Below, piece by piece: positions 2,413 to 51,774 of a DNA stretch of 64,000 nucleotides. Source of the DNA: Rhodococcus sp. SMB37 (lineage in GTDB: Bacteria > Actinomycetota > Actinomycetes > Mycobacteriales > Mycobacteriaceae). The position numbers and the translations under genes were made by a program. The DNA is taken from positions 62,001 through 126,000 of the forward strand of contig NZ_SLVY01000011.1 of assembly GCF_004345605.1 (NCBI RefSeq), read 5' to 3'. The notes under the pieces are model-generated. The model was given only the letters and a program-made list of their open reading frames with translations. It was not told where the DNA came from and searched no databases. Every line of letters begins with the position of its first letter. Position 1 is the stretch's first letter.

Positions 2413-2453
2413 GTCCGTTTCTCCTTGTGTAGCAACAGTGGAAGGGGAGGACG

Positions 2454-3203: not shown

Positions 3204-3212
3204 ACCAGCTCC

Positions 3213-3707
3213 TTACAGCAGGTAACCGGAGGCGCTGACCGCGTCCTCGCTGTCGACGAGACGGATCACCTTGAGGGAGATCTTGTCGTCACCCTCGTCG
3301 TCCAAGACAACGGTGTGCGTCAGGTTCGCGCCGAGTGTCAGGAACTCGTTCCGCTTGAACGCATTGAGAATCTGGGCCGAGCGAACGGTGACGGAGGTGT
3401 CGGTGAGCTCGCGCACGGTGAAGCGGGAGATGACCCGGACGGTGCGTGCCGCCGCCACCGCAGACGGCGAATAGCCCTGCAGCATGCGCTCGACGCGAAG
3501 CCGCCGCATGCGCTTGTCGTCGTACACCAGGTTGAGCGACGACCCGAAATCGTCGGTATCCGGGTCGATCGGGACGACGTAATGGGCGTCGTCGGTGTAC
3601 ATCTGCTCCCACGACTTGTAGTCCTTGTCGTCGAGCGCTTCGGCTTCCTTCCAGATGAGCTCGATCGCGCGCAGGACGCGGGGGTCCGTCAGGGTGAGGT
3701 CAGTCAT
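3213..3707 (-). CDS. iacD: Rieske dioxygenase beta (small) subunit (IacD)
   Basis: This 164-residue protein has the cone-like NTF2 fold of ring-hydroxylating dioxygenase beta subunits, recognisable from WEQMYTDDAHYVVP, then RVERMLQGYSPSA, then a closing strand near KISLKVIRLVDSE. The beta subunit has no metal of its own and shapes the alpha3beta3 complex. Its start overlaps the 3' end of the alpha-subunit gene by 8 bases, so the two should be made in equal amounts. In iac pathways IacC/IacD act on an oxidised indole-acetate intermediate. Confidence 0.88.
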   Translation of the reverse strand: MTDLTLTDPRVLRAIELIWKEAEALDDKDYKSWEQMYTDDAHYVVPIDPDTDDFGSSLNLVYDDKRMRRLRVERMLQGYSPSAVAAARTVRVISRFTVRELTDTSVTVRSAQILNAFKRNEFLTLGANLTHTVVLDDEGDDKISLKVIRLVDSEDAVSASGYLL

Positions 3708-4980: not shown

Positions 4981-5021
4981 GGTGCTCTTCTTTCGGAATT
5001 CGTGTCGTGCGGGCGTCCGCA

Positions 5022-5519
5022 TCAGTGCAGGTGGGCCATTGCTTCGGTGGGCAGCGGTGTCGCGAACATCCGCTGCGTACGGAACCGGCTCATCCGGGCG
5101 GTGGGATGGGGGAGTCGTTCGATCTCGAAGTCGATTTCGAGCCGGGCGCACAACAACTCGGCGGTGCCGTCCGTGTGGAGCGAGAGTTGCTGCATGATCC
5201 AACGGCCCCGAGTATCGTCACCCTCGACCCGGATCTGCTCGCTGCCGAGCAGATGAGCATTGCGGACGAAGTGCTCTGCCGGTGGGAGATACTGCGAGAC
5301 GAGCGCAACCACCTCGGCGCGCCCTCGGGCGATTCCGAACTTGCCGGCGTACTCAGGGCCTACCCCCTCCCAGGTCGCGTCGGCGGTGAACAGCAGTCCG
5401 ATCTCGTCGGCGCTCTCCAATGGCCCGGGCACGTCGCACAGGTCCATGTAGCGGGTCAGGCAGTCGCGGACGGCGTCCTTCGCTTCGAGGACTGCCAGAC
5501 GGCGTTCGAGGGCGGTCAT
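5022..5519 (-). CDS. iacI: SnoaL/NTF2-like protein (IacI)
   Basis: This 165-residue protein has an NTF2-like fold: an N-terminal helix (LEAKDAVRDCLTRYMDLCD), then FTADATWEG, then alternating strands ending near MSRFRTQRMFATP. It resembles the small SnoaL-like proteins called IacI in indole-acetate clusters. Such folds act as small hydrolases, isomerases or beta-like subunits. No catalytic residue is certain. It sits between iacB and iacC on the same strand, 4 bp after the iacB stop, so it is co-transcribed. Confidence 0.75.
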   Translation of the reverse strand: MTALERRLAVLEAKDAVRDCLTRYMDLCDVPGPLESADEIGLLFTADATWEGVGPEYAGKFGIARGRAEVVALVSQYLPPAEHFVRNAHLLGSEQIRVEGDDTRGRWIMQQLSLHTDGTAELLCARLEIDFEIERLPHPTARMSRFRTQRMFATPLPTEAMAHLH

Positions 5520-37212: not shown

Positions 37213-37638
37213 TCAGCCGGTAGCTCGGTCGAGTTCGGAACCGGACTGGACGGGTGCAGCCGCGATGCGGCGGGGATCGCCGTCGGGGAGCGATTCGATC
37301 AGGATACGTCGCGGGTGTGCCGCAGAGCCCGTCGTCAGATACTTCTGGCCAGGACGCACACGTCGGGCCTCGTCGGCTGTCTCGTCCGTGACCGGAGGAG
37401 CAGTGGGTTCGTTGAGTGCGTCGCGCACGACCCGTCGTGGGTCGTACTGCTTCAGGTCCAATGAAGTCGCGACCCCCATTTCACGTTCGGCTGCACCGCG
37501 CGTCGATTCGACGAAGTCGCGCAGTGCCCGAACAGTGCGGGCGAGCTGATGGGCGTACACGGGCAGCCGTTGCGGACCGAGCACGACCCCCGCGATGATG
37601 GCGACGAGGAAGAGTTTCTCGAAGGTCAGGCCGAACAT
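37213..37638 (-). CDS. tatB: TatB-like Sec-independent translocase subunit
   Basis: This 141-residue protein has the TatA/B layout: one N-terminal membrane helix (FEKLFLVAIIAGVVL), a GPQRLP hinge, an amphipathic helix (LARTVRALRDFVES) and a long polar tail. The long tail and the hinge favour TatB over TatA. Its start lies inside the 3' end of tatC. The order tatA-tatC-tatB is not that of the usual actinobacterial genome, where tatB stands alone and tatA-tatC are paired. This looks like a second, self-contained Tat set. Confidence 0.82.
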   Translation of the reverse strand: MFGLTFEKLFLVAIIAGVVLGPQRLPVYAHQLARTVRALRDFVESTRGAAEREMGVATSLDLKQYDPRRVVRDALNEPTAPPVTDETADEARRVRPGQKYLTTGSAAHPRRILIESLPDGDPRRIAAAPVQSGSELDRATG

Positions 37639-38396
37639 GTTGTGGATTCCTCATTTCGGGACGCTCGCCTGTCGTGCAGCGTCGTGATGACGAGTGCGGC
37701 GCCGAACAATACCGACATCGGCAACGCGACCAAGAACATGGACAGGACGTCGGCGGCCGGTGTTACCAGTGCACTGAACAGCGTGATGACGACGATGATT
37801 ACGCGCCAGCTGCTACGGAGCCTGGCTGCGGAGACGATCCCGATGTAGTTCAACATCACCAGGAACACCGGCAGAACAAAGGCAATCCCGGTCGCCAGAA
37901 CAACTTTCATCACGAAGTCCACGTAGTACGACGCGTTGAGGATCGTGCTGTCCTGGTCGGACGAGAATGCGGTGAGCACGCTCACCATCCGGGGGAAGAT
38001 CAGGAATCCGAACGCGCAACCGGCAGCGAAGAGCGGGGCGGCCGCCGCGGAGAACCCGAGGACGTACTTCTTCTCCCGGCGTGTCAGGCCGGGGGTGACG
38101 TAGGCGAAGAGCTCTCGCAGCCAGATCGGACTGGACAGGATCACGCCCGAGAACAGCGCGATCTTCAGCTGGAGGTCGAACGCACCGGTCACGGTATCGT
38201 AGTTGAGGCTGGCCTCCCGGGAGAGCGCCAGCTGCTCGACAGGTTCGCGCAGGACGTCGAGGATCTGATCCGAGAGAGCGAACCCGACGATCACGCCGAT
38301 GAGCAGCGACACCGCCGCGCGAACACCGCGACGTCGTGCCTCGCCCAGGTGTCCGGCGATCGGCATCGTGCCTCGCGTGGCGGTGATCGCGGTCAT
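37626..38396 (-). CDS. tatC: TatC-like translocase core protein
   Basis: This is a 256-residue membrane protein with six hydrophobic spans and the TatC markers: HLGEARRR at the N-terminus (where the signal peptide is bound), PIWLRELFAYVTPGL between spans, and FPRM. TatC is the receptor for twin-arginine signals. It is divergent from typical TatC in the HLxELRxR motif, reading HLGEARRR. It overlaps both tatA (ATGA) and tatB. This compact unit probably serves the lipoprotein encoded first in the operon. Confidence 0.85.
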   Translation of the reverse strand: MTAITATRGTMPIAGHLGEARRRGVRAAVSLLIGVIVGFALSDQILDVLREPVEQLALSREASLNYDTVTGAFDLQLKIALFSGVILSSPIWLRELFAYVTPGLTRREKKYVLGFSAAAAPLFAAGCAFGFLIFPRMVSVLTAFSSDQDSTILNASYYVDFVMKVVLATGIAFVLPVFLVMLNYIGIVSAARLRSSWRVIIVVITLFSALVTPAADVLSMFLVALPMSVLFGAALVITTLHDRRASRNEESTTCSA

Positions 38397-38593
38397 GACG
38401 CGCGGCGGTACGGAACCTGAGTGAGGTCCGCGGTCTGCGCGTCGGTGGTCGGCTCGTCACTCACCTCGTCCTTGAGGATGCGCATCGACTGGCCGACGCT
38501 CTTGGCGAGCGCCGGAAGCTTGGTCGAGCCGAAGACGAGGAGGACGATCGCGAGGATGATGAGGGCATGCCAGCCCGTGAGGTTGTTCAACAT
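38393..38593 (-). CDS. tatA: TatA-like pore subunit
   Basis: This 66-residue protein has one N-terminal span (WHALIILAIVLLVFG), an FGSTKLPALAKSVGQSM hinge and amphipathic helix, and a short acidic tail, all classical for TatA. AAGGA precedes the start. It lies 44 bp after the stop of the Tat-signal lipoprotein gene and overlaps tatC, so all four genes should share one transcript. Confidence 0.88.
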   Translation of the reverse strand: MLNNLTGWHALIILAIVLLVFGSTKLPALAKSVGQSMRILKDEVSDEPTTDAQTADLTQVPYRRAS

Positions 38594-38637
38594 GGTGTTG
38601 TCCTTGTGTGTTGGGTGAGTGCGTGTCGGGTGAGTGA

Positions 38638-39603
38638 TCAGTTGGGGGCGTCCGAGCCCATGCCCGGCATGCCTCCACGGGGAGGTTCGCCGCCCATCGG
38701 TGCACCCGCCGGGGGGACGCCGCCACTGCTGAGGGTGGGTTCGGTCGTCGTATCGACCGCGACGGCCAGCGACCCGACGTATCCGGAGTCGGTGTTCCCG
38801 GAGAACGTCCCCATCTGCAGGTCGTATCCGTCGCCGAAGACGTTGTCGTTGTCGAGGCTTCCGATCTGGGCAAGATTCTCGGCCGACCCCGAGTAGGTAT
38901 CCAGCAGGTAGACCTCGTCGAGCATGTCCTGGGGAAACGCGATCTGTGACGTCGCGATCGCATTCTCGACGTTGGTCGCGGAGTCGACGTCGGGGTAGAC
39001 CTCGAAGTGAATGTGGGTCCAGCGACCCGTGTAGCAGCCGGGCACGATCGTCTCGAAGGTTGCCTTACCGTCGGCGTCGGCCACCTGGATCCCGCGCAGG
39101 TAGGTCTCGTCCTCGACACCTTCGGTGTACATCGAGTACCGGCCCTGCGCGTCGCACTGCCAGGCGTACACGGCGACCCCTTCGAACGGGGTGTTGTCAT
39201 TCGCCATGTCGGTGACAGTGAAGGTGAGGGAAAGGGGAACACCGTCGGCGGTGGTGCCGCCGTCGAGGCTCGACGTGATCTCACTGCGGACGATCCCGGA
39301 TTCCTCGAGCACGTTGACCCCGTTCGTGCCATCGGCCGGATAGGGGCCGTTGGTTTCCTCGGGGATTTCGCCGGCGGGTGTGCTCACCGTGGCGGCAGTG
39401 CTGTCGTTGCTCGGGGAACACGCGGCCAGTGCCAGCGCCCCGGCCCCGGCACCGACGATGCTCAGCACTCGCCGGCGGGTGACCAGGGTGGCGATGTCGA
39501 AGCCTGCACCCTGATCGACGACATCCTCGGTGGGGCGGTCGAGCAGGCGGCCTTGGTATGCGGGTCCGTCCGGTGTATCGGTGGGTTCGGGAGCGGGGCT
39601 CAT
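38638..39603 (-). CDS. Tat-exported lipoprotein with intradiol-dioxygenase fold
   Basis: This 321-residue protein has an unusually long N-region, then a twin-arginine motif TRRRVLS (42-48), a hydrophobic stretch and a lipobox LAAC with Cys62. The body has the intradiol ring-cleavage dioxygenase fold: NGPYPADG, the strand VYAWQCDAQGRYS, and the iron-site motif CYTGRWTHIHFEV with the His-X-His pair. The tail is Pro/Gly/Met-rich (PPRGGMPGMGS). It would be folded with its iron in the cytoplasm, exported by Tat and anchored outside. The substrate is unknown. It is the first gene before tatA-tatC-tatB. Confidence 0.85.
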   Translation of the reverse strand: MSPAPEPTDTPDGPAYQGRLLDRPTEDVVDQGAGFDIATLVTRRRVLSIVGAGAGALALAACSPSNDSTAATVSTPAGEIPEETNGPYPADGTNGVNVLEESGIVRSEITSSLDGGTTADGVPLSLTFTVTDMANDNTPFEGVAVYAWQCDAQGRYSMYTEGVEDETYLRGIQVADADGKATFETIVPGCYTGRWTHIHFEVYPDVDSATNVENAIATSQIAFPQDMLDEVYLLDTYSGSAENLAQIGSLDNDNVFGDGYDLQMGTFSGNTDSGYVGSLAVAVDTTTEPTLSSGGVPPAGAPMGGEPPRGGMPGMGSDAPN

Positions 39604-39743: not shown

Positions 39744-40184
39744 TCAGGAGTTCAGGTCGGTCACCAGTACCGCGGTCAACGCAACTTCCACCGGCGCCCC
39801 GCCTGGGAGGGTGTACACCCCGATCGCACTGCGCGCGGGTAGGTGGTCCGGGCCGAGCTCTGTGGCAATCATCTCCGACGCTCCATCCGCCACCGCCGAC
39901 AACGCCGTGAAATCAGCGGTCGCTGCCACGTACACGACCATCTCGGCCGGGCGAAAGCGGTGACCGGCAGGAACCACCGACCGCACCGCGGCCAGTGCAT
40001 TGCGTGCGCCCAGGGACGCGGCCGCATGGGCCTGGGCGACAGTCACCTCAGCGCCGACCCTGCCGGTGACGGTGAGTACGCCGTCGACACGGGGCGTCAT
40101 CCCCGCTGTGCGGACGGTGTCGCCGGCGAGTACCGCAGCGACGTAACGACCTTGCGGTACAGGGGCTTCGATATCACTCGACAC
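39744..40184 (-). CDS. RidA/YjgF-family protein
   Basis: This 146-residue protein of the RidA superfamily has AGMTPRV near the start, a central ARNALAAV segment, and the ending ARSAIGVYTLPGGAPVEVALTAV. The Arg of the last block corresponds to the residue that binds the substrate carboxylate in RidA. GTG 40184 lies inside the gamma-glutamyltransferase gene's end, so translation is coupled. RidA proteins hydrolyse reactive enamines and imines. Placing one at the end of an amine-oxidising gene set suggests it clears an imine intermediate here (inference). Confidence 0.82.
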   Translation of the reverse strand: MSSDIEAPVPQGRYVAAVLAGDTVRTAGMTPRVDGVLTVTGRVGAEVTVAQAHAAASLGARNALAAVRSVVPAGHRFRPAEMVVYVAATADFTALSAVADGASEMIATELGPDHLPARSAIGVYTLPGGAPVEVALTAVLVTDLNS

Positions 40185-41763
40185 CGAGCACCACCCCTTC
40201 CTGTCGAGGATCGCTCCCCCCACTCATCACACCCTGCGTCATCGAGACGACTTGTGCGCTGCCCTCGGCACCGTAGGCGTCGAGCACGTTGACCTGGTGA
40301 CCCATATCCGACAGCGATCGAAGGACCTCACGGCCGACTCGTCCTTCGATACGCAGCTCGGGGGCGTGGCCGAGGGCGTTCGCATCGGACCCGGGGTACA
40401 CCGTGAACCGAGGCGCCTCCACCGTCTCCTGCGGATCGAGTCCGTGGTCCAGCAGATGGGACAGGAGTTGCATGTTCCACTGCACCTGGCCGTCACCACC
40501 GGGGGTGTTGCCGACATGCATGAGTTCGCCGTCGCTGCCGGTGACGATCCAGGCGTTGAGTGTGTGCAAGGGTTTGCGTCGCGGCGACACCTCGTTGGGA
40601 TGGCCGTCGATCAGGTATGCCCCACGACCGAGTCGGTTGTTGAGAGCCACACCGGTTCCGGGCACTGTGAACTTCGCGCCGAAGGTGAATGCGAGGGAAT
40701 GGATGAAGGAGACGGCTCGGCCCTCGGCGTCGACGGCGACGAACGACGTCGTATCTCCACCCGACACGGCAAATGCGCCTGCGGCTTCCCAGGAGGCGAG
40801 CCGAGCCCGTCCGTCGGCGATGTTCGTCGCGGAAAGCGCTTGTTCGACGCCGTCATTGTCCGAACCACACCACCGCAATCGGTCCTCGAACGAGAGCGCT
40901 GCGGCACGCGCCATACGGTCGATGGCCGGAGCGCTCAGCCAAGGCATCGTGCCGAGCTCTCCGTCGCACAACGCGGCCTGCTGCAACACCATCCACCCCG
41001 GTGTCGGCAGCGGGGTCTGGTGCACTGTCGTTCCCGCGTACGTCCCGGTCAGTGCGGATTCGACGGGAACCGAAGCACCCGCGACCCATTCGTCGCCTGT
41101 GAACGGCGCACCGGAATACTGCAACGCCGCGACACAGTGCTCGGCAATTGCCCCGGTATAGAACGAAGATGGATCCGACGCGAGGGCACGGATGGTACGC
41201 GCCAGGTCGACCTGCGGAAGCCGATCACCCACGCGCGGAACGGCCCCCGTCGGCGTGTATACCGAGGCGAGACCGACATCGGAGCGGATGGCGTGGAGTG
41301 CAGCCTGCACGTCGGCGCGGGTTTTCGCCGAACACGGTAGCCCGCGTTCGGCGATGCGCGCGGCGGGCTCCCACAACTCGAGCAACGACATGCTCGCCCC
41401 GTACGCATGCAGAGCGGCGAGTGCAGCGGGCGCGCCCGGCACGGCGACGGCGAGAGCGCCGTCCAGCGGGATCGCAGAGAGTCCCCGGTCCCGGTAGAAG
41501 TCCGGAATACCACCGTCCGGTCCGTAACCGCTGCCGTTGACAGTCCGGACGGAACCGTCCGGGTCGCGCACCACGGCGAATGCGTCGCCGCCGATCCCGC
41601 ATTGTCCGGGCAGTGTCAGCCAGGTGACCGCCGCCATCGCGAGGGCCGCGTCGACCGCGTTACCACCGTGCGCCAGTACTCGCGCTCCTGCCTGGCTCGC
41701 GAGTGGGTGACTCGACGCCACCATGCCGCCGGTCGCAAGAGTGGCGGGGCGCCGCGCGCTCAT
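40174..41763 (-). CDS. ggt: Gamma-glutamyltransferase-family Ntn hydrolase
   Basis: This 529-residue protein has the GGT proenzyme layout: GGMVASSHPLAS at the start, GNAVDAALA, CGIGGDAF, and the self-cleavage site before Thr in GGDTTSFVAVD, followed by the small-subunit motifs GVALNNRL and GTGVAL. There is no signal peptide, so it is cytoplasmic, unlike typical periplasmic GGT. Known cytoplasmic relatives act on gamma-glutamyl amides or other amides and lactams in catabolism. ATG 41763 overlaps the Rieske gene stop. Its partners suggest a role in releasing or making an amine. Confidence 0.85.
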   Translation of the reverse strand: MSARRPATLATGGMVASSHPLASQAGARVLAHGGNAVDAALAMAAVTWLTLPGQCGIGGDAFAVVRDPDGSVRTVNGSGYGPDGGIPDFYRDRGLSAIPLDGALAVAVPGAPAALAALHAYGASMSLLELWEPAARIAERGLPCSAKTRADVQAALHAIRSDVGLASVYTPTGAVPRVGDRLPQVDLARTIRALASDPSSFYTGAIAEHCVAALQYSGAPFTGDEWVAGASVPVESALTGTYAGTTVHQTPLPTPGWMVLQQAALCDGELGTMPWLSAPAIDRMARAAALSFEDRLRWCGSDNDGVEQALSATNIADGRARLASWEAAGAFAVSGGDTTSFVAVDAEGRAVSFIHSLAFTFGAKFTVPGTGVALNNRLGRGAYLIDGHPNEVSPRRKPLHTLNAWIVTGSDGELMHVGNTPGGDGQVQWNMQLLSHLLDHGLDPQETVEAPRFTVYPGSDANALGHAPELRIEGRVGREVLRSLSDMGHQVNVLDAYGAEGSAQVVSMTQGVMSGGSDPRQEGVVLGVE

Positions 41764-42116
41764 GCCGACCTCATCCTGCGCCGGCGTGGACCTTCCGGAG
41801 GCTCGCTGGGATCGATGCCGACGAAGATCTCACCGTCCCGTTCCTCACACGGGTAGGTCTTGATCGGCTCGGTCGCGGGCGGGCAGATCGGCTCGCCGGT
41901 CTCGAGGTCGAAAGCACTTCCATGGCAGGAGCATCCGATCCCGTCCTGCACAAGCTTGCCGGACGACAGCAGACAGTCTAGATGGGAACAGTAGTTGGAC
42001 GTCGCATACGCTTTGCCGTCCAGCCGTGAGATCGCGAATTCGTAGTCGTCGGCGTAGAACCGGCGAACGATGCCTTCGGTCACCTGCCCGGAACGGGCCA
42101 CTCGCTTGAACTCCAT
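41760..42116 (-). CDS. Rieske [2Fe-2S] ferredoxin-like protein (second copy)
   Basis: This 118-residue Rieske protein has the cluster ligands CSHLDC and CSCHGSAFD (Cys-X-His and Cys-X2-His). An additional Cys sits in each box, as in the disulfide-stabilised high-potential Rieske proteins. The ending is basic (RRRRMRS). It is coupled to the GGT gene. The locus has another Rieske ferredoxin at 44801, so the two may serve different steps. The extra Cys pair makes a disulfide possible, which is unusual for a cytoplasmic ferredoxin. Confidence 0.82.
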   Translation of the reverse strand: MEFKRVARSGQVTEGIVRRFYADDYEFAISRLDGKAYATSNYCSHLDCLLSSGKLVQDGIGCSCHGSAFDLETGEPICPPATEPIKTYPCEERDGEIFVGIDPSEPPEGPRRRRMRSA

Positions 42117-42144
42117 GGTCTTCCTCCAGGTAGGTGTGAAGCAG

Positions 42145-43581
42145 TCAGGCCTGCGGCGACAGGTACACGGTCTTCTCGGATTGGTAGAACTGCATCAGGG
42201 TCGGTCCGGCCTGTTCCTTGAACGTCTGGGTGCTCGACTGCTTGTAGCCGCCGAACGGCGCGTTCATGGCCATCCCGGTGGTGGGCTGGTTGACCTTGAC
42301 GAGACCGGTACGGGAACCTGCGATGAACCGATGAGCATCCGGCAGATTCTTCGTCACGATCGAGGCGCAGAGCCCGAACGCGGTGTCGTTCGCGAGGACG
42401 AGAGCTTCGTCGAACGACGTGGCGCGTTGGAATGCGAGGACGGGGCCGAAGATCTCGTCCGTCAGCAGTCGCATACCGGGGGTGGTGTCGGCGAAGACGG
42501 TGGGCCGCACGAACAGTCCGCCGATGCGCTCCCCACCGCACACGAGTCGTGCACCGCCGTCGATACCGATTGCGACGTACTCGAGATACTTGTCGAGTTG
42601 AGCCTCGGAGGCGAGTGGGCCCATGGATACGCCCCGGTCAGAGCCCGTCCCGACCGTGAGTGCTTCGGTCCGCGTGACCACCTTGTCGAGCAGTGCGTCG
42701 TGGATCTCGTCGACCGCGATGACGCGGCTGGTGCCGGTGCAGGCTTGTCCCGACAAGCCGAACGCGCCCTTGACGATGAGCGCCGCGGCGGCGTCGATGT
42801 CGGCATCGGCGAGTACGACGACAGGATTCTTTCCGCCCATCTCCAACTGCACGCGGCGTTCGGGGCCGATGCCGCGGTGGATTGCCCTGCCGACCTCGGT
42901 GGAGCCGGTGAATGTCACTGCCGCTACACGTTCGTCGCCGACCATGGCGGCACCGGCCTTGCCGTCGCCCTGGACGAGCGCAATCGCACCTGGAGGCAAT
43001 CCTCCGGCGAGCAATGCTTCGACAAGACGTTGGCCCATGAGCGGGGTGATTTCGGACGGCTTGAACAGCACCGTATTTCCGGCAGCAAGTGCGGGCCCGA
43101 GCTTGCGGGACGGAATGTTCAGCGGGAAGTTCCACGGAGTGATCGCACCGACTATCCCGATGGGCTCGCGCACCGTGTACACCGTGGTGGGACCACCGCC
43201 GGGGTAGACCGTGCCCGTCGCACGGTGGGCCTCGCCGGCGTAGAACCGGAGGTTCATCGGCGTGCGGCTCACCTCCATCGATGCTTCGGCGCGGGTCTTG
43301 CCCTCTTCGCGGATCAGCTCCTCGACGAGTGTGTCCGCGTGGGCTGCGAGGTGATCGGCGGCGGCCTCGAGGATGGCGGCGCGCCGCTCCGGTGGTGTGG
43401 CCGCCCACTCGGGGGCTGCCTTGTCGAGCGCATCGACGGCGTTCTGCACGTCGACTGTATCCGAATCGGGGAATGTTCCGATCAGGTCGGAATCGTCTGC
43501 GGGGTTGCGTCGTTCGAATACCTTTCCGGAGTTGGCCGGTACCCAGTTGCTGTCGATGAAATTCGATCCGGTGATCGTCAT
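42145..43581 (-). CDS. NAD(P)-dependent aldehyde dehydrogenase
   Basis: This is a 478-residue member of the ALDH superfamily: TPWNFPLNIPSRKLGPAL, FTGSTEVGRAI for the cofactor, general-base Glu in LEMGGKNP, and the nucleophile Cys in SGQACTGTSR. It resembles the vanillin/semialdehyde branch. It would oxidise an aldehyde released by the oxygenase of this cluster to an acid. Its start overlaps the ferredoxin reductase stop (ATGA, 43578-43581). Most of a longer frame on this strand is a shadow of the reductase. Confidence 0.9.
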   Translation of the reverse strand: MTITGSNFIDSNWVPANSGKVFERRNPADDSDLIGTFPDSDTVDVQNAVDALDKAAPEWAATPPERRAAILEAAADHLAAHADTLVEELIREEGKTRAEASMEVSRTPMNLRFYAGEAHRATGTVYPGGGPTTVYTVREPIGIVGAITPWNFPLNIPSRKLGPALAAGNTVLFKPSEITPLMGQRLVEALLAGGLPPGAIALVQGDGKAGAAMVGDERVAAVTFTGSTEVGRAIHRGIGPERRVQLEMGGKNPVVVLADADIDAAAALIVKGAFGLSGQACTGTSRVIAVDEIHDALLDKVVTRTEALTVGTGSDRGVSMGPLASEAQLDKYLEYVAIGIDGGARLVCGGERIGGLFVRPTVFADTTPGMRLLTDEIFGPVLAFQRATSFDEALVLANDTAFGLCASIVTKNLPDAHRFIAGSRTGLVKVNQPTTGMAMNAPFGGYKQSSTQTFKEQAGPTLMQFYQSEKTVYLSPQA

Positions 43582-44804
43582 GCCTGCTCCAACTCCTCGT
43601 ACATTTCCCACAGATCGGCGTCCTCGTCGCCGAGTAGTGCAGCGTCGACACGCTTCCCGACCAGTTCGCGTGCGGCCATGATGTCTTCGCCTCGATCCAT
43701 CGCGAATGCGGCGGTGAGTGTCTCGCCCGCAAGATAGAAGACGGAGAACTCGCCGGTGTCGATGTCGCCGCGCACAACGAAGTCTGTTGCACCGGATGCT
43801 GTACCCGCGAATTGGATGTTCGTGTCGTATTGATCGGACCAGAACCAGTGCGGGTCGTCGGAGAGGGTGTCGCGTCCGACGAGCGCGTTCGCCACCACAC
43901 CCGCCTGCCGGTTGGCATTGTCGAAATGCTCGACGCGGATGTGCCTGCCCACGCGCGGTGAATATCGACTGGCGACGTCGCCCGCGGCATACACGTGTGG
44001 CACCGAGGTACGACCGACTGCGTCGACCACGATCCCGCCGTCGACGGCCAATCCACTTGTCGCGGCGACCTCGACGTTCGGGATGATGCCGATCCCGACC
44101 ACTGCTGCATCCGCTTCCACGACGTCCCCTGTCGTCGTCGTGATTCGGACTCCGCGGTCGGAGGTGTCGACCGCGGAGACGCCCGTGCCGGTGCGTAGAT
44201 CGACGCCGCCGCGGCGATGCAGATCCGCGCAGTAGCCGCCGACCTGCCGGCCGAGGACGTTGCCGAGCAGGTGCTCGGACTGCTCGATCACCGTGACGTT
44301 CACCCCGAGGGAACGGGCGGTCGCGGCAATCTCGAGCCCGATGAATCCGCCGCCGACGATGGCGAGTGAAGAGTTGGGGGTGAGCCGCGCGGCGAGCGCC
44401 TGCGCGTCGTCGAGGGTGCGCAGGTAGTGAACCAGGTCGGTGCGAGTGCCCGTTGCAGGGACAGCGCGTGGGCGGCCGCCGGTCGCGAGGACGACGGCAT
44501 CGGCGGCGATGCTTCCGCCATCGAATTCGACGGTGCCTGTGGCGGTGTCGACTCGTCGGACCGCGACACCCGTACGGATGTCGATGTCGTTGGTCTCGAG
44601 CCATTTCGGAGTCAGAAGCGCCAGGGAGTCCACCCCTTCACGTCCTGCGAGGAACTCCTTCGAGAGCGGCGGGCGCTGGTACGGTGCGTGCAGTTCGTCG
44701 CCGAGCAGGATGATCCTGCCGTCGAACCCGCGGCGGCGGAGGGTACGGGCGGCGACTGCGGCGACCTGGCCGGCGCCGACCGTGACAACGGTGCGGATTG
44801 TCAT
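43578..44804 (-). CDS. FAD-dependent ferredoxin reductase
   Basis: This is a 408-residue NADH:ferredoxin reductase of the oxygenase-coupled type: VGAGQVAAVAARTLR for FAD, PYQRPPLSKEFL, VGGGFIGLEIA for NADH, and VYAAGDVAS with HWFWSDQYDTNIQ. The first FAD motif is GxGxxA rather than GxGxxG, a small oddity. It would move electrons from NADH to the Rieske ferredoxin encoded just upstream, which it overlaps (ATGA). The pair forms the redox chain for the diiron oxygenase of the cluster. Confidence 0.9.
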   Translation of the reverse strand: MTIRTVVTVGAGQVAAVAARTLRRRGFDGRIILLGDELHAPYQRPPLSKEFLAGREGVDSLALLTPKWLETNDIDIRTGVAVRRVDTATGTVEFDGGSIAADAVVLATGGRPRAVPATGTRTDLVHYLRTLDDAQALAARLTPNSSLAIVGGGFIGLEIAATARSLGVNVTVIEQSEHLLGNVLGRQVGGYCADLHRRGGVDLRTGTGVSAVDTSDRGVRITTTTGDVVEADAAVVGIGIIPNVEVAATSGLAVDGGIVVDAVGRTSVPHVYAAGDVASRYSPRVGRHIRVEHFDNANRQAGVVANALVGRDTLSDDPHWFWSDQYDTNIQFAGTASGATDFVVRGDIDTGEFSVFYLAGETLTAAFAMDRGEDIMAARELVGKRVDAALLGDEDADLWEMYEELEQA

Positions 44805-45148
44805 GAAGCACACTCTCTTCCGGACACCTCGCGCGGTGTGGGATCGATGTGGACGGTGTCGCCGTCGACGTGGACGGCGTACGTCGGCTGGCAGAGGTCC
44901 TGGTCGTCCTCGTACCCGGTGTCGAGGTCGAAACGCCATTGATGGCCCGGGCAGATGACACGGCCGTGCAGTAGCGTGCCCTTGGCGAGGGAACGGTCCT
45001 GGTGGACGCACAGGTCGGCGAAGGCGTAGATGCGGTCGTTGGCGTGGAACAGCGCGATCGCCACGCCGTCTACTTCCACGCGTAGCTTGCGGCGCCGAGT
45101 CACCTCTTTGACGGTGGCGACAGCGACCCAAGTCTGTGGGGTGGACAT
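44801..45148 (-). CDS. Rieske-type ferredoxin (first copy)
   Basis: This is a 115-residue Rieske ferredoxin with ligands in CVHQD (Cys-X-His) and CPGHQW (Cys-X2-His), without the extra disulfide Cys. It resembles the soluble ferredoxins that feed aromatic dioxygenases and is preceded by GAAGGAG. It stands 68 bp after the oxygenase gene and overlaps the reductase gene. The only oxygenase beside it is the diiron HDO enzyme, so it is its presumed electron donor. Confidence 0.88.
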   Translation of the reverse strand: MSTPQTWVAVATVKEVTRRRKLRVEVDGVAIALFHANDRIYAFADLCVHQDRSLAKGTLLHGRVICPGHQWRFDLDTGYEDDQDLCQPTYAVHVDGDTVHIDPTPREVSGRECAS

Positions 45149-45216
45149 GATTACTCCTTCGCTCGTGTGCTGCGGGGCGGGAGCCCGGTCGCGCTCCCGC
45201 CCCACGCTCGTCGGGG

Positions 45217-45936
45217 TCAGGCCGACGCCAACTCCAGGTCGGGAGCGACGTAGCTGTCGTACAGACCCTTGGTATACGAGAAGCGCATCTCCGCACCCCA
45301 CCGCACGAGCTGCAGGCAACGCTGCTGCAGCGCGGGAGTATCGGCGCAGTCGAGCACGATCTGGTAGCCGCGCTCGCCGTGGACGACGTCGGAGGTGATG
45401 TGCAGGTCGAAGAACTCGATCTCGTCCTCGGTGAACCCGTACACCTCGCGAAGCGGGATGATCTGCTTCTTGTAGATGCTCGGCACCTGGGATTCGAGAC
45501 CGACAACGAGCGCGGCAGTGGCGACCACGAAATGTTCGCGCTGCGAGACCGCGTAGCACCAGGCCTGCAGGCCTCGTGTGACGGCATTCATGTTGTTCGG
45601 GTCTTCGATGCGTTCCTTGGTGGTACCGCAGGCCTCGGCGAACTTGATGAGGAGATCGGTGTGCCGGATGTCGGCGAGTTCCTCCTCGTACATGTTCTGG
45701 AGGGTGAAGTCCTTGGCGTCGGTGTAGTGGTCGGGGGTGTTGGAGTAGATGTTGGCGAGGTAGTCGGCGAACGGGCCGACGTAGTGGTAGTGGTTTTCGG
45801 CCCAGCGGGCGAAGTGGTGCTTTTCGAGCTTGCCTTCGGCCCACGCCTTGCTGAACGATGCGTCCTTGGCCTCGCGGCCCTTGATTGCGTTTTCGAGTGC
45901 GGCGCGGAACTCGTCGCGTCCGAGCAGTTCGGTCAT
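45217..45936 (-). CDS. Heme-oxygenase-like diiron oxygenase (CADD/PqqC family)
   Basis: This 239-residue all-helical protein is of the TenA/PqqC/CADD type. It shows a full set of diiron ligands: Glu85, His92, Glu148, His179, Asp183 and His186. The last three follow the HxxxDxxH signature of HDO enzymes (UndA, SznF, BesC, CADD). The spacing matches what I recall for CADD. Glu47 with His49 and His51 lies in the first helices. PqqC itself lacks the metal site, so this is more likely an oxygen-activating iron enzyme. It heads an operon with its own ferredoxin and reductase. Amines, amino acids or amides are typical HDO substrates. Confidence 0.8.
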   Translation of the reverse strand: MTELLGRDEFRAALENAIKGREAKDASFSKAWAEGKLEKHHFARWAENHYHYVGPFADYLANIYSNTPDHYTDAKDFTLQNMYEEELADIRHTDLLIKFAEACGTTKERIEDPNNMNAVTRGLQAWCYAVSQREHFVVATAALVVGLESQVPSIYKKQIIPLREVYGFTEDEIEFFDLHITSDVVHGERGYQIVLDCADTPALQQRCLQLVRWGAEMRFSYTKGLYDSYVAPDLELASA

Positions 45937-46120
45937 GAGATGTACCTTTCACGTTGATCGTGCGGGCGATGCCGGGCTTGGGGTACGTCCGCGACGTTGC
46001 GGTCCGAAAAATGCCTGACGGCAGTTTGTTTCGGTGTCATCGACCTTAAGTTCGAGTAGGACCCGCTGCCATGGTCACAATGACCGGAGAATTCGGCCGG
46101 TCAGGGTCGATATGCACGAA

Positions 46121-46570
46121 TCATTGAGCGGGTGCCGAGACGAGCGCCTCGAACTCGGCGAGCATTGCGGCGCCGACCGCCTTGTCCTGTTCGCCGTTTC
46201 CGCCGCTGATGCCCACGGCACCGACGATCTGGCCGTCGTGGACGAGGGGGAACCCGCCGACGAAGACAGCGAACTTGCCGGGCAGCATGTGACTGATTCC
46301 GAAGGCCTCGTTGCCGGGGAGTGCCGGTCCGTTGGGCGGCTCGTTGAACAGGTGGGTGGCGCGCTCGTGGCCGGCGGCGGTGTAGGCCTTGGCGATGGCG
46401 ATGTCGACGCCGGTCAGTCGTGCACCGGGAATCCGATGCAGTGCAATGACATTTGCGCTCTCATCGCATACACACAGTGTCTGCTTGACGCCGAGTTCCT
46501 CGGCCTTGGCGCGCCCGGCGGCGAGCAGGGGGAGTGCGTCGTCGAGGTCGATCCGATGAATTCGATGCAT
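46121..46570 (-). CDS. GlcG/HbpS-family protein
   Basis: This is a 149-residue GlcG/HbpS-like protein: DDALPLLAAGRAKAEELGV, then CDESANVIALHRIPGA, DIAIAKAYTA, and the closing GQIVGAVGISGGNGEQDKAV. Members bind small ligands, heme or cobalamin, and are common in catabolic gene sets, but their role is rarely known. It precedes the oxygenase gene on the same strand by 185 bp and lies downstream of a motif C site, so it may be the first gene of this pathway's transcript. Confidence 0.83.
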   Translation of the reverse strand: MHRIHRIDLDDALPLLAAGRAKAEELGVKQTLCVCDESANVIALHRIPGARLTGVDIAIAKAYTAAGHERATHLFNEPPNGPALPGNEAFGISHMLPGKFAVFVGGFPLVHDGQIVGAVGISGGNGEQDKAVGAAMLAEFEALVSAPAQ

Positions 46571-46667: not shown

Positions 46668-46686
46668 TGGACATTGTGCACATTCG
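46668..46686. promoter_or_regulatory. Motif C, site 1 (between GlcG and PucR genes)
   Basis: TGGACATTGTGCACATTCG contains the palindrome TGTGCACA and shares TGGRCAYTGTGCAY with sites at 49963 and 50098. It is placed between the divergent GlcG and PucR-type regulator genes, where a self-regulating activator would bind. Confidence 0.55.
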
Positions 46687-46775: not shown

Positions 46776-48431
46776 GTGGAACCGAGTCCGCGCCTGACCG
46801 TCCGTGGTCTTCTCGACGAACAACTCATGGAAGGTGCTCGGGTCGCGCCCGACAACGCTGATCTCGACAGTGCCCTCACGTGGGTACTGCCACTCGGCGA
46901 GGTCATAGGCCGCTACGACGATCTGTCCGGCGTCGCCGTATACACCCGACCGGAGGCGCTCGCGGCCAACGCACCGGCCGTATCGGCGATCGCTGCCCGT
47001 GGCGCCGCAGCGCTCATCGTCGACGGCGCAGCGCCGGCGTCCGACGCCACATGGCCCCTGGGCCTACCCGTGATCGAACTCGACCTCCCGGTCGGATTCG
47101 CCGCGCTCAACAGGCTTCTCGCCGAACGGTCACTGACACAGGAAGTGCACGTGATGCGCTATTCCGCACTTGTGCACTCCACTCTCGCCGGCCTCCTGCA
47201 TCGAGGTGCCGGCCTTGCGCTGTTGATCAAGGAGGTGTCGTCGCTCGCGCAACATCCCGCGCTCGTGCTCGACGCCCGCGGCCAGGTCGTAGCCCATCAC
47301 GCCATAGATCGGGTGGTCGTCGATGAGATTACGGAGCACCTCCAGGGTCCCCTCGCCGCCGCGCCGACGGCGAGCCGGCATCAGCATCACGACACCCGCG
47401 TCGTGGAGCAGACCGCGGGAGGGGTGCGCTGGACGTGCACTGCCGGCGCGATCCGCCTCGGCAAGAGGTTCGAAGGGTGGGTGGTGATTCTCGCCCCCGG
47501 CCCCGCGCCGGGCCCGCACGATCTCGCTCAGCACGCGGTGGTCACCGAGCAGGCATCTGCGATCATCGGTTCCGAGATGCTGCGCCAGAGCAGCGTGGAC
47601 GAGGCCGAGGAACGCGCGCGCGGTGATTTCGTCCAGGCGCTCGTCCACGGCAGCTTCTCCAGTCGCCATGATATGCAGGCCCGCGCCGAGTATCACGACA
47701 TTGACCTCACCTCGACATTCGCCGTGTTCGTCGCGCCCGGGTACAGCGGGAATCCTTCCGCGCCGGGCGGTGAGGGTCCGGGCGGATTGTTGCGACTCGC
47801 CCGGTACGCGGCCAGCGTTCTGCCGCACCCCTCCGTCCGGTCGTATGTCACCGTGATCGGCGACGCACTCGTCGTGGTGCGGTCGCTCCGATATCGCGAT
47901 GCCCCCGACATCGAAGCGGAGATCGACGAATTCGCGGAGGCCGTGTCGGCGGACCTGTCGCGGCGTCGAGGCCGGCCGGTACCTGTCGCACACGGAGTAC
48001 CCGCCGTCGGCGCCGATCAGATCCGCGAGAGTTACCGACAGGCGCGGGTGGCGCTCGGGATCGGGCAGCGGATGGACATGTCAGGCTCGGTGTCATACCA
48101 CGACCTGCGCGGATACGGTGTCCTCGAGCTCGTCGCCGACACCGACCGCAGCCGACGTTTCGTCGATGACGTGCTCGGCACCCTAAGGCCGGGAACCGAC
48201 CTCCACGACACGCTCGTCGCGTATCTCGGCGCCGGCGGCAACGTCAACGCTGCCGCACGCGAACTCAACGTGCACCGCAACACGATGCTCTCGAAGCTCG
48301 ACCGGATCTCGCGGGCGATGTCGATGGACGTACGGGTGCCGGAGAATCAATTCACTGCCTGGCTCGCCATCCGGCTCGAATTGCTCGATCGACTGCATAC
48401 CTCGGTGGATCGCGAGATCAACTACCGCTGA
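46776..48431 (+). CDS. PucR-family transcriptional regulator
   Basis: This is a 551-residue regulator with GTG start 46776. The N-terminal PucR ligand domain (about 5-125) is followed by a GGDEF-like CdaR middle domain (around 285-430). A C-terminal helix-turn-helix contains GNVNAAARELNVHRNTMLSKLDRI. PucR/CdaR proteins are activators of catabolic operons for purines, sugar acids, amines or polyethers. It is divergent from the GlcG/oxygenase run and converges on the MFS transporter with a 14-base overlap. Three copies of motif C make it the likely switch of the whole region. Confidence 0.88.
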   Translation: MEPSPRLTVRGLLDEQLMEGARVAPDNADLDSALTWVLPLGEVIGRYDDLSGVAVYTRPEALAANAPAVSAIAARGAAALIVDGAAPASDATWPLGLPVIELDLPVGFAALNRLLAERSLTQEVHVMRYSALVHSTLAGLLHRGAGLALLIKEVSSLAQHPALVLDARGQVVAHHAIDRVVVDEITEHLQGPLAAAPTASRHQHHDTRVVEQTAGGVRWTCTAGAIRLGKRFEGWVVILAPGPAPGPHDLAQHAVVTEQASAIIGSEMLRQSSVDEAEERARGDFVQALVHGSFSSRHDMQARAEYHDIDLTSTFAVFVAPGYSGNPSAPGGEGPGGLLRLARYAASVLPHPSVRSYVTVIGDALVVVRSLRYRDAPDIEAEIDEFAEAVSADLSRRRGRPVPVAHGVPAVGADQIRESYRQARVALGIGQRMDMSGSVSYHDLRGYGVLELVADTDRSRRFVDDVLGTLRPGTDLHDTLVAYLGAGGNVNAAARELNVHRNTMLSKLDRISRAMSMDVRVPENQFTAWLAIRLELLDRLHTSVDREINYR

Positions 48432-49839
48432 GCGTGTCTGCATCGGTGTCGCGTGCCGGCGGCGATGCGGCAGTGTCTTCGGGATCGCGTCCGAGGAACG
48501 AAGCTCCGAGCCCGATGCACACGACGGCCACGCATGCGACGAACACGATTCCCACCGACCACGCGGACAGCGCGATCGTCACCCATGCCGCGCCCACCGC
48601 GGAGCCTCCGAAGCGGATGAGATTGAAGACGCCGAGCCCGGTGCCCTGTGCACCGGCGGGGGAGCGCGTCGATCCGGCCGCGGCGGGTGTCTGCACTGCG
48701 GCGATGCCCGCTCCGGTCACCGCGAGAACACACGCGACGAGCCACAGGTTCGGTTCGTCGTTCGACAGAACGACCGCGAGCGCCCCCTGAGTCACCACCA
48801 GGACGGCCAGACCGAACCGCAGAACACGTCGCCCGCCGATCCGGTCGGTCGTCCGGCCCACCAGCGGTGCGAGGGCCGCCATGACGGCAGGGAGTGCGAA
48901 CAGGACCATGCCCGAAGTCGCGGTGGATTCACCCGTCGCCGTCAATCTGAGTGGAACGGCAAGCAGGGCAGTGCCGAGACAGAACATCTGCGCGAACGCG
49001 GCGACCGCGCTCCGAGCGAAACGACTCTCGACGAGCAGGCGCGCATCGATGAACGGCAGGGGAGCGCGCAGGCAGTGCGCGACAAACCATGCCAGTACGG
49101 CGGTCGATGCCACGAGTGCCAGTGGAGGAACAGCCGGCGCGACACCGGACTGACCGAACATGCTCAAGCCCAGCACGATTCCCGCGGATCCTACGGTGAG
49201 TGTCGTAGCGCCGAGCACATCGAGTCGAATGGGTCGGCCGGGGAACGCCGGTATCCATCGCAGTGTTCCGGCGAATCCGATCAGCGCAATCGGAATCAGA
49301 GGGACGAACACCCACCGCCAACCCCAACTGCCGGCCACGAACCCGCCGAGCGACGGTCCGATCGCCTGGCCGATCCCGTTGACGGTTGCCCACGCGCCCA
49401 CGGCACGCGCGCGGCGTTGTGAGTCGAAGAGCCACGCGATCAGTCCCATCACCGCCGGGGCGAACGCTGCGGCCGAGAGTCCACCGAGTGCGCGCCAGGC
49501 GATGAGCACTTCGAGGGCGGGGGCTGTGGCTGCGCCTGCCGCGCACACCGCGGTACCGAGGAGGGCGCCGCAGTACACGCGCCGGCGCCCGAAGCGATCG
49601 CCGATGTAACCCGCGATCGGCATCGCTGCCGCGAAGGTGAGGAGGAATGCGACGGCGAGCAGTGTGCCGTCCTCCAGCGACGCGTCGAAATCCGAGAGGA
49701 TCTGGACAAGCGGAACGTTGATGATGTTGTTGCTCAGTGTTCCGACGAGTGTGCCGGCGAGAAGCGCGGACAGCGCCAGTGGGGTGCCGGTGCCGGACGC
49801 GTCCGGAGACGCGGCGGGCACGTGTGTGGAGGTGGTCAT
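48418..49839 (-). CDS. MFS transporter (DHA2/EmrB-like)
   Basis: This is a 473-residue major-facilitator protein starting at ATG 49839 behind CAGGAG; a longer frame to 50220 is not supported. About twelve or more spans are visible. Motif A is GYIGDRFGRRRVY between the second and third spans, and a later RIGGRRVLRFG repeats it in the second half. GxxxGPxxGG (GIGQAIGPSLGG) is typical of drug:proton antiporters. It may export a toxic amine or import the substrate. Motif C lies about 125 bp upstream. Confidence 0.87.
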   Translation of the reverse strand: MTTSTHVPAASPDASGTGTPLALSALLAGTLVGTLSNNIINVPLVQILSDFDASLEDGTLLAVAFLLTFAAAMPIAGYIGDRFGRRRVYCGALLGTAVCAAGAATAPALEVLIAWRALGGLSAAAFAPAVMGLIAWLFDSQRRARAVGAWATVNGIGQAIGPSLGGFVAGSWGWRWVFVPLIPIALIGFAGTLRWIPAFPGRPIRLDVLGATTLTVGSAGIVLGLSMFGQSGVAPAVPPLALVASTAVLAWFVAHCLRAPLPFIDARLLVESRFARSAVAAFAQMFCLGTALLAVPLRLTATGESTATSGMVLFALPAVMAALAPLVGRTTDRIGGRRVLRFGLAVLVVTQGALAVVLSNDEPNLWLVACVLAVTGAGIAAVQTPAAAGSTRSPAGAQGTGLGVFNLIRFGGSAVGAAWVTIALSAWSVGIVFVACVAVVCIGLGASFLGRDPEDTAASPPARDTDADTLSGS

Positions 49840-49962: not shown

Positions 49963-49978
49963 TGGGCATTGTGCACAG
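49963..49978. promoter_or_regulatory. Motif C, site 2 (upstream of MFS transporter)
   Basis: TGGGCATTGTGCACAG has the same core as site 1, differing by one base in the first ten (A to G). It lies 124 bp before the MFS start. Confidence 0.5.
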
Positions 49979-50097: not shown

Positions 50098-50113
50098 TGG
50101 GCACTGTGCATGG
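50098..50113. promoter_or_regulatory. Motif C, site 3 (upstream of second transporter)
   Basis: TGGGCACTGTGCATGG keeps the TGTGCA core and the TGGGCA lead. It lies 81 bp before the transporter start. Confidence 0.45.
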
Positions 50114-50193: not shown

Positions 50194-51774
50194 TTGGACG
50201 TACAACTCACCGCCGCCCACTGGGTCTACCTGGTCGGCATACTCGTCATCCTGGCCACCATGGCGCTACGGAAGAACATCGTCGTTCCCGCCGTCATCGC
50301 AACGTTCCTGACCGCACTGGTTTTCTCCGGCAGTATCGTCACCGGACTGTCCGCCATCTTCAACGCCAGCCTGGTGGCGGCGAAGGAACTGTTCAACATC
50401 TTCCTCATCATCGCGATGGTCACCGCGATGCTCGGCGCACTACGCCAGCTCGGCGCCGATCGGATGATGGTCGCACCGTTCCGCCGCGTCATGCGTGCCG
50501 GAACCAGCAGTTTCCTGGTTCTCGCTGCCGTCACCTACGTGATCTCGCTGTTCTTCTGGCCGACTCCCGCTGTCCCGCTGGTCGGCGCGGTGCTCATTCC
50601 CGTCGCAATCCGGGCGGGCTTGTCTCCGCTGTCGGTGGGCATGGTCATCGCGATCTGCGGCCAGGGAATGGCGTTGTCGTCGGACTACATCATCAAGGTC
50701 GCACCGGGCATCTCCGCGTCCGCGGCGGGGGTCGACCCCGATGCGGTGGCGGACAAAGCACTCGTGTTGTCGCTCATCGTCGGTGGCACCGCCCTTGTGC
50801 TCACGTACCTCATGCAGAAGAAGACCTGGCGTACGCCGTCTCCCGAGCTGCTCATCGAATGGGAAGCCGAGGCCGATCGGGGGATCGGCGAATCACGTTC
50901 CGGGGGTGATGATTCTTCGGGTGGGGGTGGAGGATCGAAGCCGGTGCCGGCGGGTCCGGCCGGCGGGCCCACCGGTGGCGGTACGTCGGCAACCGCGGCG
51001 ACCGTTGTACTCGCCCCCGCGGCGAGCCCGTTCCCGGATGAGGTTGCCGAGGCGGAGAAGGAACGTCGCGGCACCGCAAAGGCTTTCGCGATGCTCGTGC
51101 CTCTCGCATACCTCGCGTTCATCGTCTATCTGATGCTGGGAAAGTTCACCGAGGTCGTGCCGCCACTGCAGGGTGGCGACGCCGCGGCGATCGTGGGTGG
51201 CATTGCGGCACTGGTCTTGTTCGCTGCTGCGGCATCGACCGATGGGGGCGGCTTCCTCGAGACGACTTCGGACCACCTCGTCGACGGCCTGGTGTTCGCG
51301 TTCAAGGCCATGGGTGTTGTGCTGCCCATCGCAGGGTTCTTCTTCATCGGCAATGCCGACTTCGCCGGTGCGATTCTCGGTGTTCCCGACAGTGGCGCTG
51401 CACCTGCGATCCTGTTCGACCTGGTCACCGCAGTGCAGACACACCTGCCACAGAACGCGTTCATCACATCGTTCGGGATCCTGCTCATCGGCCTCGTCGC
51501 AGGTTTGGACGGCTCCGGATTCAGTGGCCTGCCGCTCACGGGTGCGTTGTCGGGTGCGCTCGGTCCCGCGGTCGACGTCGACCCGGCGACGCTCGCCGCG
51601 ATCGGACAGATGGGCAACATCTGGGCGGGCGGCGGTGTGATCATCGCGTGGTCGTCGCTCGTCGCGGTCGCGGGGTTCGCTCGCGTGCCCGTCCTCGATC
51701 TCGCCCGGAAGTGCTTCATCCCGGTGATTTCCGGACTCGTCCTGTCGACGATCTTCGCGGTGCTCGTGTTCTAG
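50194..51774 (+). CDS. Multi-span membrane transporter, family uncertain
   Basis: This 526-residue protein starts at TTG 50194, six bases after AAGGA; longer frames to 50071 have no site. It has about a dozen hydrophobic spans in two halves, separated by a polar Gly/Ser/Pro/Thr-rich linker (about residues 225-285, including a run of Gly). Repeated features such as VPLVGAVLIPVAI and GLDGSGFSGLPLTGAL suggest the ion-transporter (IT) superfamily of anion/organic-acid carriers, but I cannot fix a family. Its motif C promoter and its position suggest it imports the substrate of the oxygenase pathway. Confidence 0.75.
   Translation: MDVQLTAAHWVYLVGILVILATMALRKNIVVPAVIATFLTALVFSGSIVTGLSAIFNASLVAAKELFNIFLIIAMVTAMLGALRQLGADRMMVAPFRRVMRAGTSSFLVLAAVTYVISLFFWPTPAVPLVGAVLIPVAIRAGLSPLSVGMVIAICGQGMALSSDYIIKVAPGISASAAGVDPDAVADKALVLSLIVGGTALVLTYLMQKKTWRTPSPELLIEWEAEADRGIGESRSGGDDSSGGGGGSKPVPAGPAGGPTGGGTSATAATVVLAPAASPFPDEVAEAEKERRGTAKAFAMLVPLAYLAFIVYLMLGKFTEVVPPLQGGDAAAIVGGIAALVLFAAAASTDGGGFLETTSDHLVDGLVFAFKAMGVVLPIAGFFFIGNADFAGAILGVPDSGAAPAILFDLVTAVQTHLPQNAFITSFGILLIGLVAGLDGSGFSGLPLTGALSGALGPAVDVDPATLAAIGQMGNIWAGGGVIIAWSSLVAVAGFARVPVLDLARKCFIPVISGLVLSTIFAVLVF

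Follow-up and report, generated by a model that had tools for sequence, protein, structure and literature searches.

The heme-oxygenase-like dimetal oxygenases (HDOs) comprise thousands of sequences, about a dozen of them validated, predominantly with fatty or amino acid substrates, according to the accessible text of a 2026 review (PMC13108848). In that portion of the review the functions named are biosynthetic only, and 'catabol' occurs once, for heme. It also lists N-oxygenating members, as well as BesC, whose action on a lysine derivative releases formaldehyde and ammonia, and MboA, which requires a redox partner, MboB, for one step and is thus a precedent for an HDO with a partner protein. 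We have analyzed a HDO gene found in a 64 kb stretch of Rhodococcus sp. SMB37 (contig NZ_SLVY01000011.1, 62001-126000), called here the window, in which all positions are counted. Its product shares the predicted fold and the candidate set of three histidine and three carboxylate ligands with CADD, UndA, BesC, HrmI and PolF but, in contrast to these HDOs, it sits with Rieske ferredoxins, a reductase, an aldehyde dehydrogenase (ALDH) and a hydrolase in an operon of catabolic type. We lean, by a little, towards reading this cluster as an inducible catabolic module for a N-containing organic acid, in which the HDO would initiate a breakdown to a 2-oxo acid.

Other described systems resemble parts of the cluster. 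The electron chains of ring-hydroxylating dioxygenases (HcaC/HcaD and AndAb/AndAa) have a ferredoxin and a reductase of the same type. However, no Rieske oxygenase alpha subunit is found in the cluster, where the HDO would replace it, and there are two Rieske ferredoxins, the additional one being the more conserved. Pyridine ring cleavage in Arthrobacter sp. 68b reportedly follows a logic of flavin monooxygenase, amide hydrolase and semialdehyde dehydrogenase, which the cluster resembles except that a HDO would stand in the place of the flavin enzyme. A search of full-text literature, with some narrow queries and with most subscription journals outside its coverage, gave no title or abstract start describing the cluster, and no paper on the genes of homarine breakdown, with which the cluster might have been compared. 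As far as searched, the single families are known while their combination and likely role are undescribed, in agreement with the original prediction made from the window alone.

A conserved set of eleven genes

Eight open reading frames (ORFs), all open and with plausible starts, lie on the minus strand between 46570 and 39744. In transcription order, with their families by hidden Markov model, they are GlcG/HbpS, an EfgA-like DUF336 protein (46121..46570, 149 aa, HbpS-like 108.6 bits); the HDO (45217..45936, 239 aa, Haem_oxygenas_2 122.6 bits); Rieske ferredoxin 1 or Fd1 (44801..45148, 115 aa, Rieske 55.8 bits); a NAD(P)H ferredoxin reductase of HcaD/AndAa type, FdR (43578..44804, 408 aa, Pyr_redox_2 and Reductase_C, NF042949 362 bits); the ALDH (42145..43581, 478 aa, Aldedh); Rieske ferredoxin 2 or Fd2 (41760..42116, 118 aa, Rieske 63.4 bits); a GGT-like Ntn amidohydrolase (40174..41763, 529 aa, G_glu_transpept 307 bits); and a RidA/Rid1-like protein, a predicted imine deaminase (39744..40184, 146 aa, GTG start, Pfam Ribonuc_L-PSP 43.8 bits). 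This is the array that had been proposed, GlcG upstream on the same strand included. The description of its genes as mostly linked by ATGA overlaps was too generous: 4 nt overlaps of this kind do occur at Fd1/FdR, FdR/ALDH and Fd2/GGT, which makes three of the six junctions in the seven-gene run from HDO to RidA. GGT and RidA overlap by 11 nt, and gaps of 184, 68 and 28 nt separate GlcG/HDO, HDO/Fd1 and ALDH/Fd2, respectively.

Three more genes complete the set. Divergent from GlcG is a PucR-type regulator (46776..48431, plus strand, 551 aa, HTH_30 and GGDEF_2), followed by a converging MFS transporter gene, EmrB/DHA2-like (48418..49839, minus strand, putative start, MFS_1 194 bits, TIGR00711 153.8 bits, below the cut-off). 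Divergent from the latter is the gene of an unannotated membrane protein (50194..51774, plus strand, putative TTG start).

To evaluate conservation we took the best 80 of 501 HDO relatives from a genome scan, all of them actinobacterial by title and with the HDO present by selection. A partner was counted when tblastn gave E <=1e-6 in a single alignment covering 40% or more of the query. All eleven genes were found within the retrieved stretch in 48 of the 80 loci, and the conservation that had been named as a check on this operon of catabolic type was thereby borne out. Among the 32 incomplete loci, 22 were longer than 14 kb and 10 were shorter, cut contigs. FdR and Fd1 were present in 79 loci each, Fd2 in 74, ALDH in 73, PucR in 72, MFS in 71, RidA and GlcG in 69 each, GGT in 68 and the membrane protein in 62, while the ten reference genes taken from the flanks within the window appeared in at most 4 each. 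The PucR regulator and both transporters thus belong to the conserved set, from which the first description had left them out, and so often does, as a twelfth member, a DUF1275 membrane protein (25 of 86 loci carry one family, identified by Pfam, and 18 of 86 a similar second family, recognized by eye). Gene order and orientation vary between genera, indicating that the linkage is more than synteny.

Within these best 80 the nearest named HDO loci are from Rhodococcus, with Rhodococcus sp. JCM 9791 at 99%. Many Mycolicibacterium clusters (within L042-L066) are flanked by sulfatase/formylglycine-enzyme-like and ribosomal protein genes, as judged by eye, so that the cluster looks like an old chromosomal resident there. 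Overall its distribution is scattered: among genomes of the order 7 of 200 carry it, and in a sample of the phylum 2 of 396, the source genome being counted in both. Of 394 genomes in the class, 5 carry the HDO and the same 5 the membrane protein (source genome counted). The two are also on the same 6 plasmid records, with one extra record for the membrane protein without HDO; one weak plasmid match to the HDO was PqqC. The distance matrices of the ten partner genes correlated with that of the HDO (r 0.56-0.89; for none of the genes did any of 999 permutations reach the observed value), a result for which shared descent alone could suffice. Mean pairwise identity was highest for HDO (0.84), GlcG (0.79) and Fd2 (0.73, over 69), and lowest for PucR (0.46).

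The oxygenase

The candidate metal ligands of the HDO, E85, H92, E148, H179, D183 and H186, were invariant in 30 of 30 sequences and align with what we take to be the ligand positions of CADD. The sequence thus predicts a dimetal site of three histidines and three carboxylates. The AlphaFold2 model (pLDDT 81.8, weak at residues 74-88, a stretch that contains one ligand) matched CADD, PqqC, UndA and HrmI with Z scores of 18.6-20.9, specifically 20.9 for CADD 1rcw (rmsd 2.5, 209 residues aligned, about 21% identity), 18.8 for UndA 4wwj and 18.7 for HrmI; BesC 7twa gave 16.5. The nearest solved sequences are p-aminobenzoate synthases. The function of CADD was nevertheless rejected for this protein: an invariant S29 and Q158 stand where CADD has Tyr27 and Lys152, presumably its sacrificial residues, and TIGR04305 gave 94 of the 200 bits of its threshold. 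PHROGs had no match for HDO or GlcG.

Hydrolase, imine deaminase, aldehyde dehydrogenase and GlcG

T338 of the GGT-like protein aligns with the nucleophile position 391 of E. coli GGT, which is an alanine in 2e0w (the T391A precursor, we assume), and GDTT is conserved in 67 sequences. The gamma-glutamyl role first suggested for this gene did not survive. At the positions of R114, N411, D433, S462 and S463, which we take to be the gamma-glutamyl-binding residues of the E. coli enzyme, the protein has G, A, G, H and T, and TIGR00066 reached 247.3 of 357.85 bits. Since the catalytic threonine is kept and these contacts are replaced, we infer an amidohydrolase of other specificity with Thr338 as the putative nucleophile. 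In one locus where no GGT was found, that of Pseudonocardia nigra (L085, 12819-13586), a gene that looks SDR-like by eye lies between Fd2 and RidA.

The nearest solved chains to RidA are 3d01 and the Rid1 proteins ACIAD3089 and PA0814. The latter two deaminate imines, and the mark of an imine deaminase is an arginine equivalent to Arg-105 of RidA, according to the available part of the source (PMC5619798). The arginine of PARSAIG in the cluster protein aligns with an arginine of ACIAD3089 and is kept in at least 95% of 64 sequences.

Models of 2-oxoglutarate-semialdehyde dehydrogenases (the 2,5-dioxovalerate branch) ranked first for all nine cluster ALDHs compared, among them the 40%-identical Streptomyces/Pseudonocardia type and those of Cupriavidus and Caballeronia, versus none of ten ALDHs from elsewhere in the genome, the top scorers of its 39 Aldedh matches. 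By family placement this branch points to a 2-oxo-semialdehyde as substrate.

Among solved structures GlcG is closest to the formaldehyde sensor EfgA (6bws/6c0z), whose three formaldehyde contacts K57, S114 and D121 align with K61, S122 and D129. According to the accessible text (PMC8153426), EfgA is nearly confined to methylotrophs, and its formaldehyde contacts are largely conserved across DUF336 homologues. With the contacts so widespread in the family, the match is not specific, and the function of GlcG given below is a prediction.

Transport

The membrane protein had no Pfam match at E 0.01 and no NCBIfam match at 1e-10, so that a GntP label assigned by eye was dropped. Its profile found no solved structure below E 1.9. 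In contrast, its model (pLDDT 78.2) fitted sodium/dicarboxylate-sulfate (DASS), ArsB and TRAP transporters with Z scores of 17-23, about 400 residues being aligned at an identity near 10%. The best were NaS1 8y5u (Z 22.7, rmsd 3.9, 406 aligned, 9% identity), 8uve (22.3) and ArsB 10tp (21.0). This fold group is presumably the IT (ion transporter) superfamily, and the modelled fold makes the protein a probable importer of an organic anion. The cluster would in this way point to a transporter family that the libraries searched do not name.

A second copy of the membrane protein, 42-48% identical, lies after RidA in many Mycolicibacterium loci (L042, L044, L046-L048, L050, L051, L055-L057) and also in one Rhodococcus locus (L029, near 16.3 kb); in L122 it is then followed by an amidase-like gene. 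Another paralogue, beside SDR and ALDH genes (G907 contig 6, L119), was not informative. An Arthrobacter plasmid with a related transporter carries genes for a luciferase-like oxygenase, an amidase, an ALDH, a Rid protein and CoA-type enzymes nearby. This neighbourhood prompted the idea of a ring cleavage but, owing to the CoA-type genes, supports it weakly.

A palindrome in the divergent gaps

The regulator and the two transporters had been said to share an upstream motif, and this was confirmed. The palindrome TGTGCACA occurs three times in the window, in the GlcG/PucR gap (46675..46682), in the gap between the MFS and membrane protein genes (49970..49977) and within an ORF (at 31223). Besides, a degenerate copy, TGTGCATG, precedes the membrane protein gene (50105..50112). 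Over the 80 loci, TGTGCACA outnumbered every other palindromic 8-mer in the divergent gaps, with 22 copies versus 0.42 expected from mononucleotide shuffles; the coding DNA of the clusters, 791 kb in all, contained 4. The exact form was found in 19 of the 119 divergent gaps counted (pair types with at least 4 loci), hence the majority carry none or a degenerate form. Judging from this pattern, PucR likely controls both divergent promoters by binding to TGTGCACA. No wider PucR regulon was seen among the 8 one-mismatch copies examined of the 16 outside the cluster, 7 of these 8 being inside coding-like ORFs. A scan for promoters and terminators gave 1 promoter-like site versus 1.1 expected and 0 terminator-like sites versus 4.6 expected.

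Related clusters in Cupriavidus and Caballeronia

Plasmids of Cupriavidus and Caballeronia bring together the HDO (66-70% identity), ALDH (45-46%), GlcG (53-55%) and membrane protein (47-51%). In them an OCD-family imine-reductase-like protein, Fer2 ferredoxins and a Fer2-FAD-NAD reductase replace RidA, the Rieske proteins and the HcaD-type reductase; neither GGT nor RidA had a match in these stretches. Caballeronia adds an alpha/beta hydrolase (BD-FAE/Abhydrolase_3 type) and a MFS gene. We read these swaps as the same chemistry with exchanged parts. Between two ferredoxin genes of these clusters there is also a protein of 106-116 aa without Pfam match (L016 8403-8720, L017 11078-11428), which is possibly a specific partner of the HDO.

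Proposed function and alternatives

In the catabolic module that we slightly favour, the membrane protein would import an organic anion, and substrate in excess or at toxic levels may leave through the MFS protein. NAD(P)H would feed the reductase, and this the Rieske ferredoxins, which would deliver to the HDO the two electrons for O2 activation at the dimetal site. The HDO would then cleave a bond, yielding an amide and an aldehyde. The GGT-like hydrolase would cleave the amide, RidA would convert a 2-imino acid to the 2-oxo acid and ammonia, and the ALDH would oxidize a 2-oxo-semialdehyde, its most likely product being 2-oxoglutarate or something closely analogous. GlcG, by its likeness to EfgA, may bind or buffer a small reactive carbonyl compound. 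The kinds of chemistry proposed originally (oxygenase, amide hydrolysis, imine removal and aldehyde oxidation) are supported. If this is true, the known roles of HDOs would come to include nutrient breakdown, by a conserved enzyme that has an importer, a regulator and an electron chain to itself, in a system spanning soil actinobacteria and Burkholderiaceae. The defined eleven-gene set is testable in laboratory strains of Rhodococcus, such as R. jostii NBRC 16295, whose genome contains the cluster (L034).

Several observations weigh against this proposal. The sample covers 80 of the 501 HDO relatives, and 421 lie outside it. GGT is missing from L081, L085 and L086, and no amide hydrolase was recognized in the Cupriavidus stretches read, so that the amide step may be optional. 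The ALDH models stay below their cut-offs (NF052305 495.7 of 750 bits, NF042993 448.6 of 770; Cupriavidus 565.5 of 770). The membrane protein gene is missing in 12 of the 22 long incomplete loci; its start at the very edge of the retrieved stretch in L079 suggests that it may often lie just past that edge. Finally, the Arthrobacter plasmid is the only other neighbourhood of the transporter with named genes, and the CoA-type genes there imply that the transported substrate need not be the same.

A more specific version has the HDO opening a N-heteroaromatic, picolinate-like acid, as the first catabolic HDO and the first Rieske-fed, ring-cleaving one. We regard it as doubtful, though it assigns one step to every enzyme of the operon. 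Picolinate (C6H5NO2) with O2 and 2H would give a N-formyl enamine-aldehyde (C6H7NO4) by the HDO, and formate would be removed by the GGT-like enzyme, or by the alpha/beta hydrolase in Caballeronia. RidA would deaminate 2-imino-5-oxopentanoate and the ALDH would produce 2-oxoglutarate. In Cupriavidus and Caballeronia the OCD-family reductase would instead retain the nitrogen as an amino acid.

It is rather unlikely that the HDO fragments an aliphatic amino acid as BesC does. In that case the products would be formaldehyde, ammonia and either an alkene or an enamine, GlcG would sense the formaldehyde like EfgA, RidA would clear the enamine and the ALDH would oxidize the leftover semialdehyde. 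BesC acting on its lysine derivative provides the precedent (PMC13108848, in the text available), and the three EfgA contacts are kept in GlcG. However, these contacts are largely conserved in DUF336 anyway (PMC8153426, accessible part), the ALDH belongs to the 2-oxoglutarate-semialdehyde branch, and BesC is only a distant structural match to the HDO.

We also give little credit to the original proposal that the HDO oxidizes an amine or amide, here taken as an N-oxygenation or N-dealkylation, the other genes clearing the products. None of the genes seen in the set points to hydroxylamine, nitro or N-oxide chemistry and the membrane protein has a modelled fold of anion-carrier type, even if RidA and the ALDH would fit, N-oxygenating HDOs exist and one of them, HrmI, matches the HDO model. 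Very improbable is the synthesis of a natural product or cofactor, as p-aminobenzoate by CADD or PQQ by PqqC: these are the nearest solved relatives of the HDO and the reviewed HDO functions are biosynthetic (PMC13108848, same portion), but the eleven genes include no synthetase, carrier, ligase or aminotransferase, the importer, ALDH, hydrolase, RidA and PucR are of kinds typical of catabolism, and the HDO lacks the two CADD residues discussed above.

Neighbouring genes

Downstream of the operon, after a gap of 140 bp, the minus strand of the window (37213-39603) codes for an intradiol-dioxygenase-like protein followed by TatA-like, TatC and TatB-like genes. The N-terminus of the first resembles by eye a twin-arginine lipoprotein signal, and the group is perhaps a second Tat translocase next to one candidate cargo. 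Neither the cargo gene nor TatC recurred beside the HDO cluster in the 80 loci. Further away (1462-5202, minus strand), a DmmA-like Fer2 protein, a SDR-like protein and a Rieske oxygenase alpha subunit are grouped in what is apparently a separate ring-hydroxylating or demethylating system.

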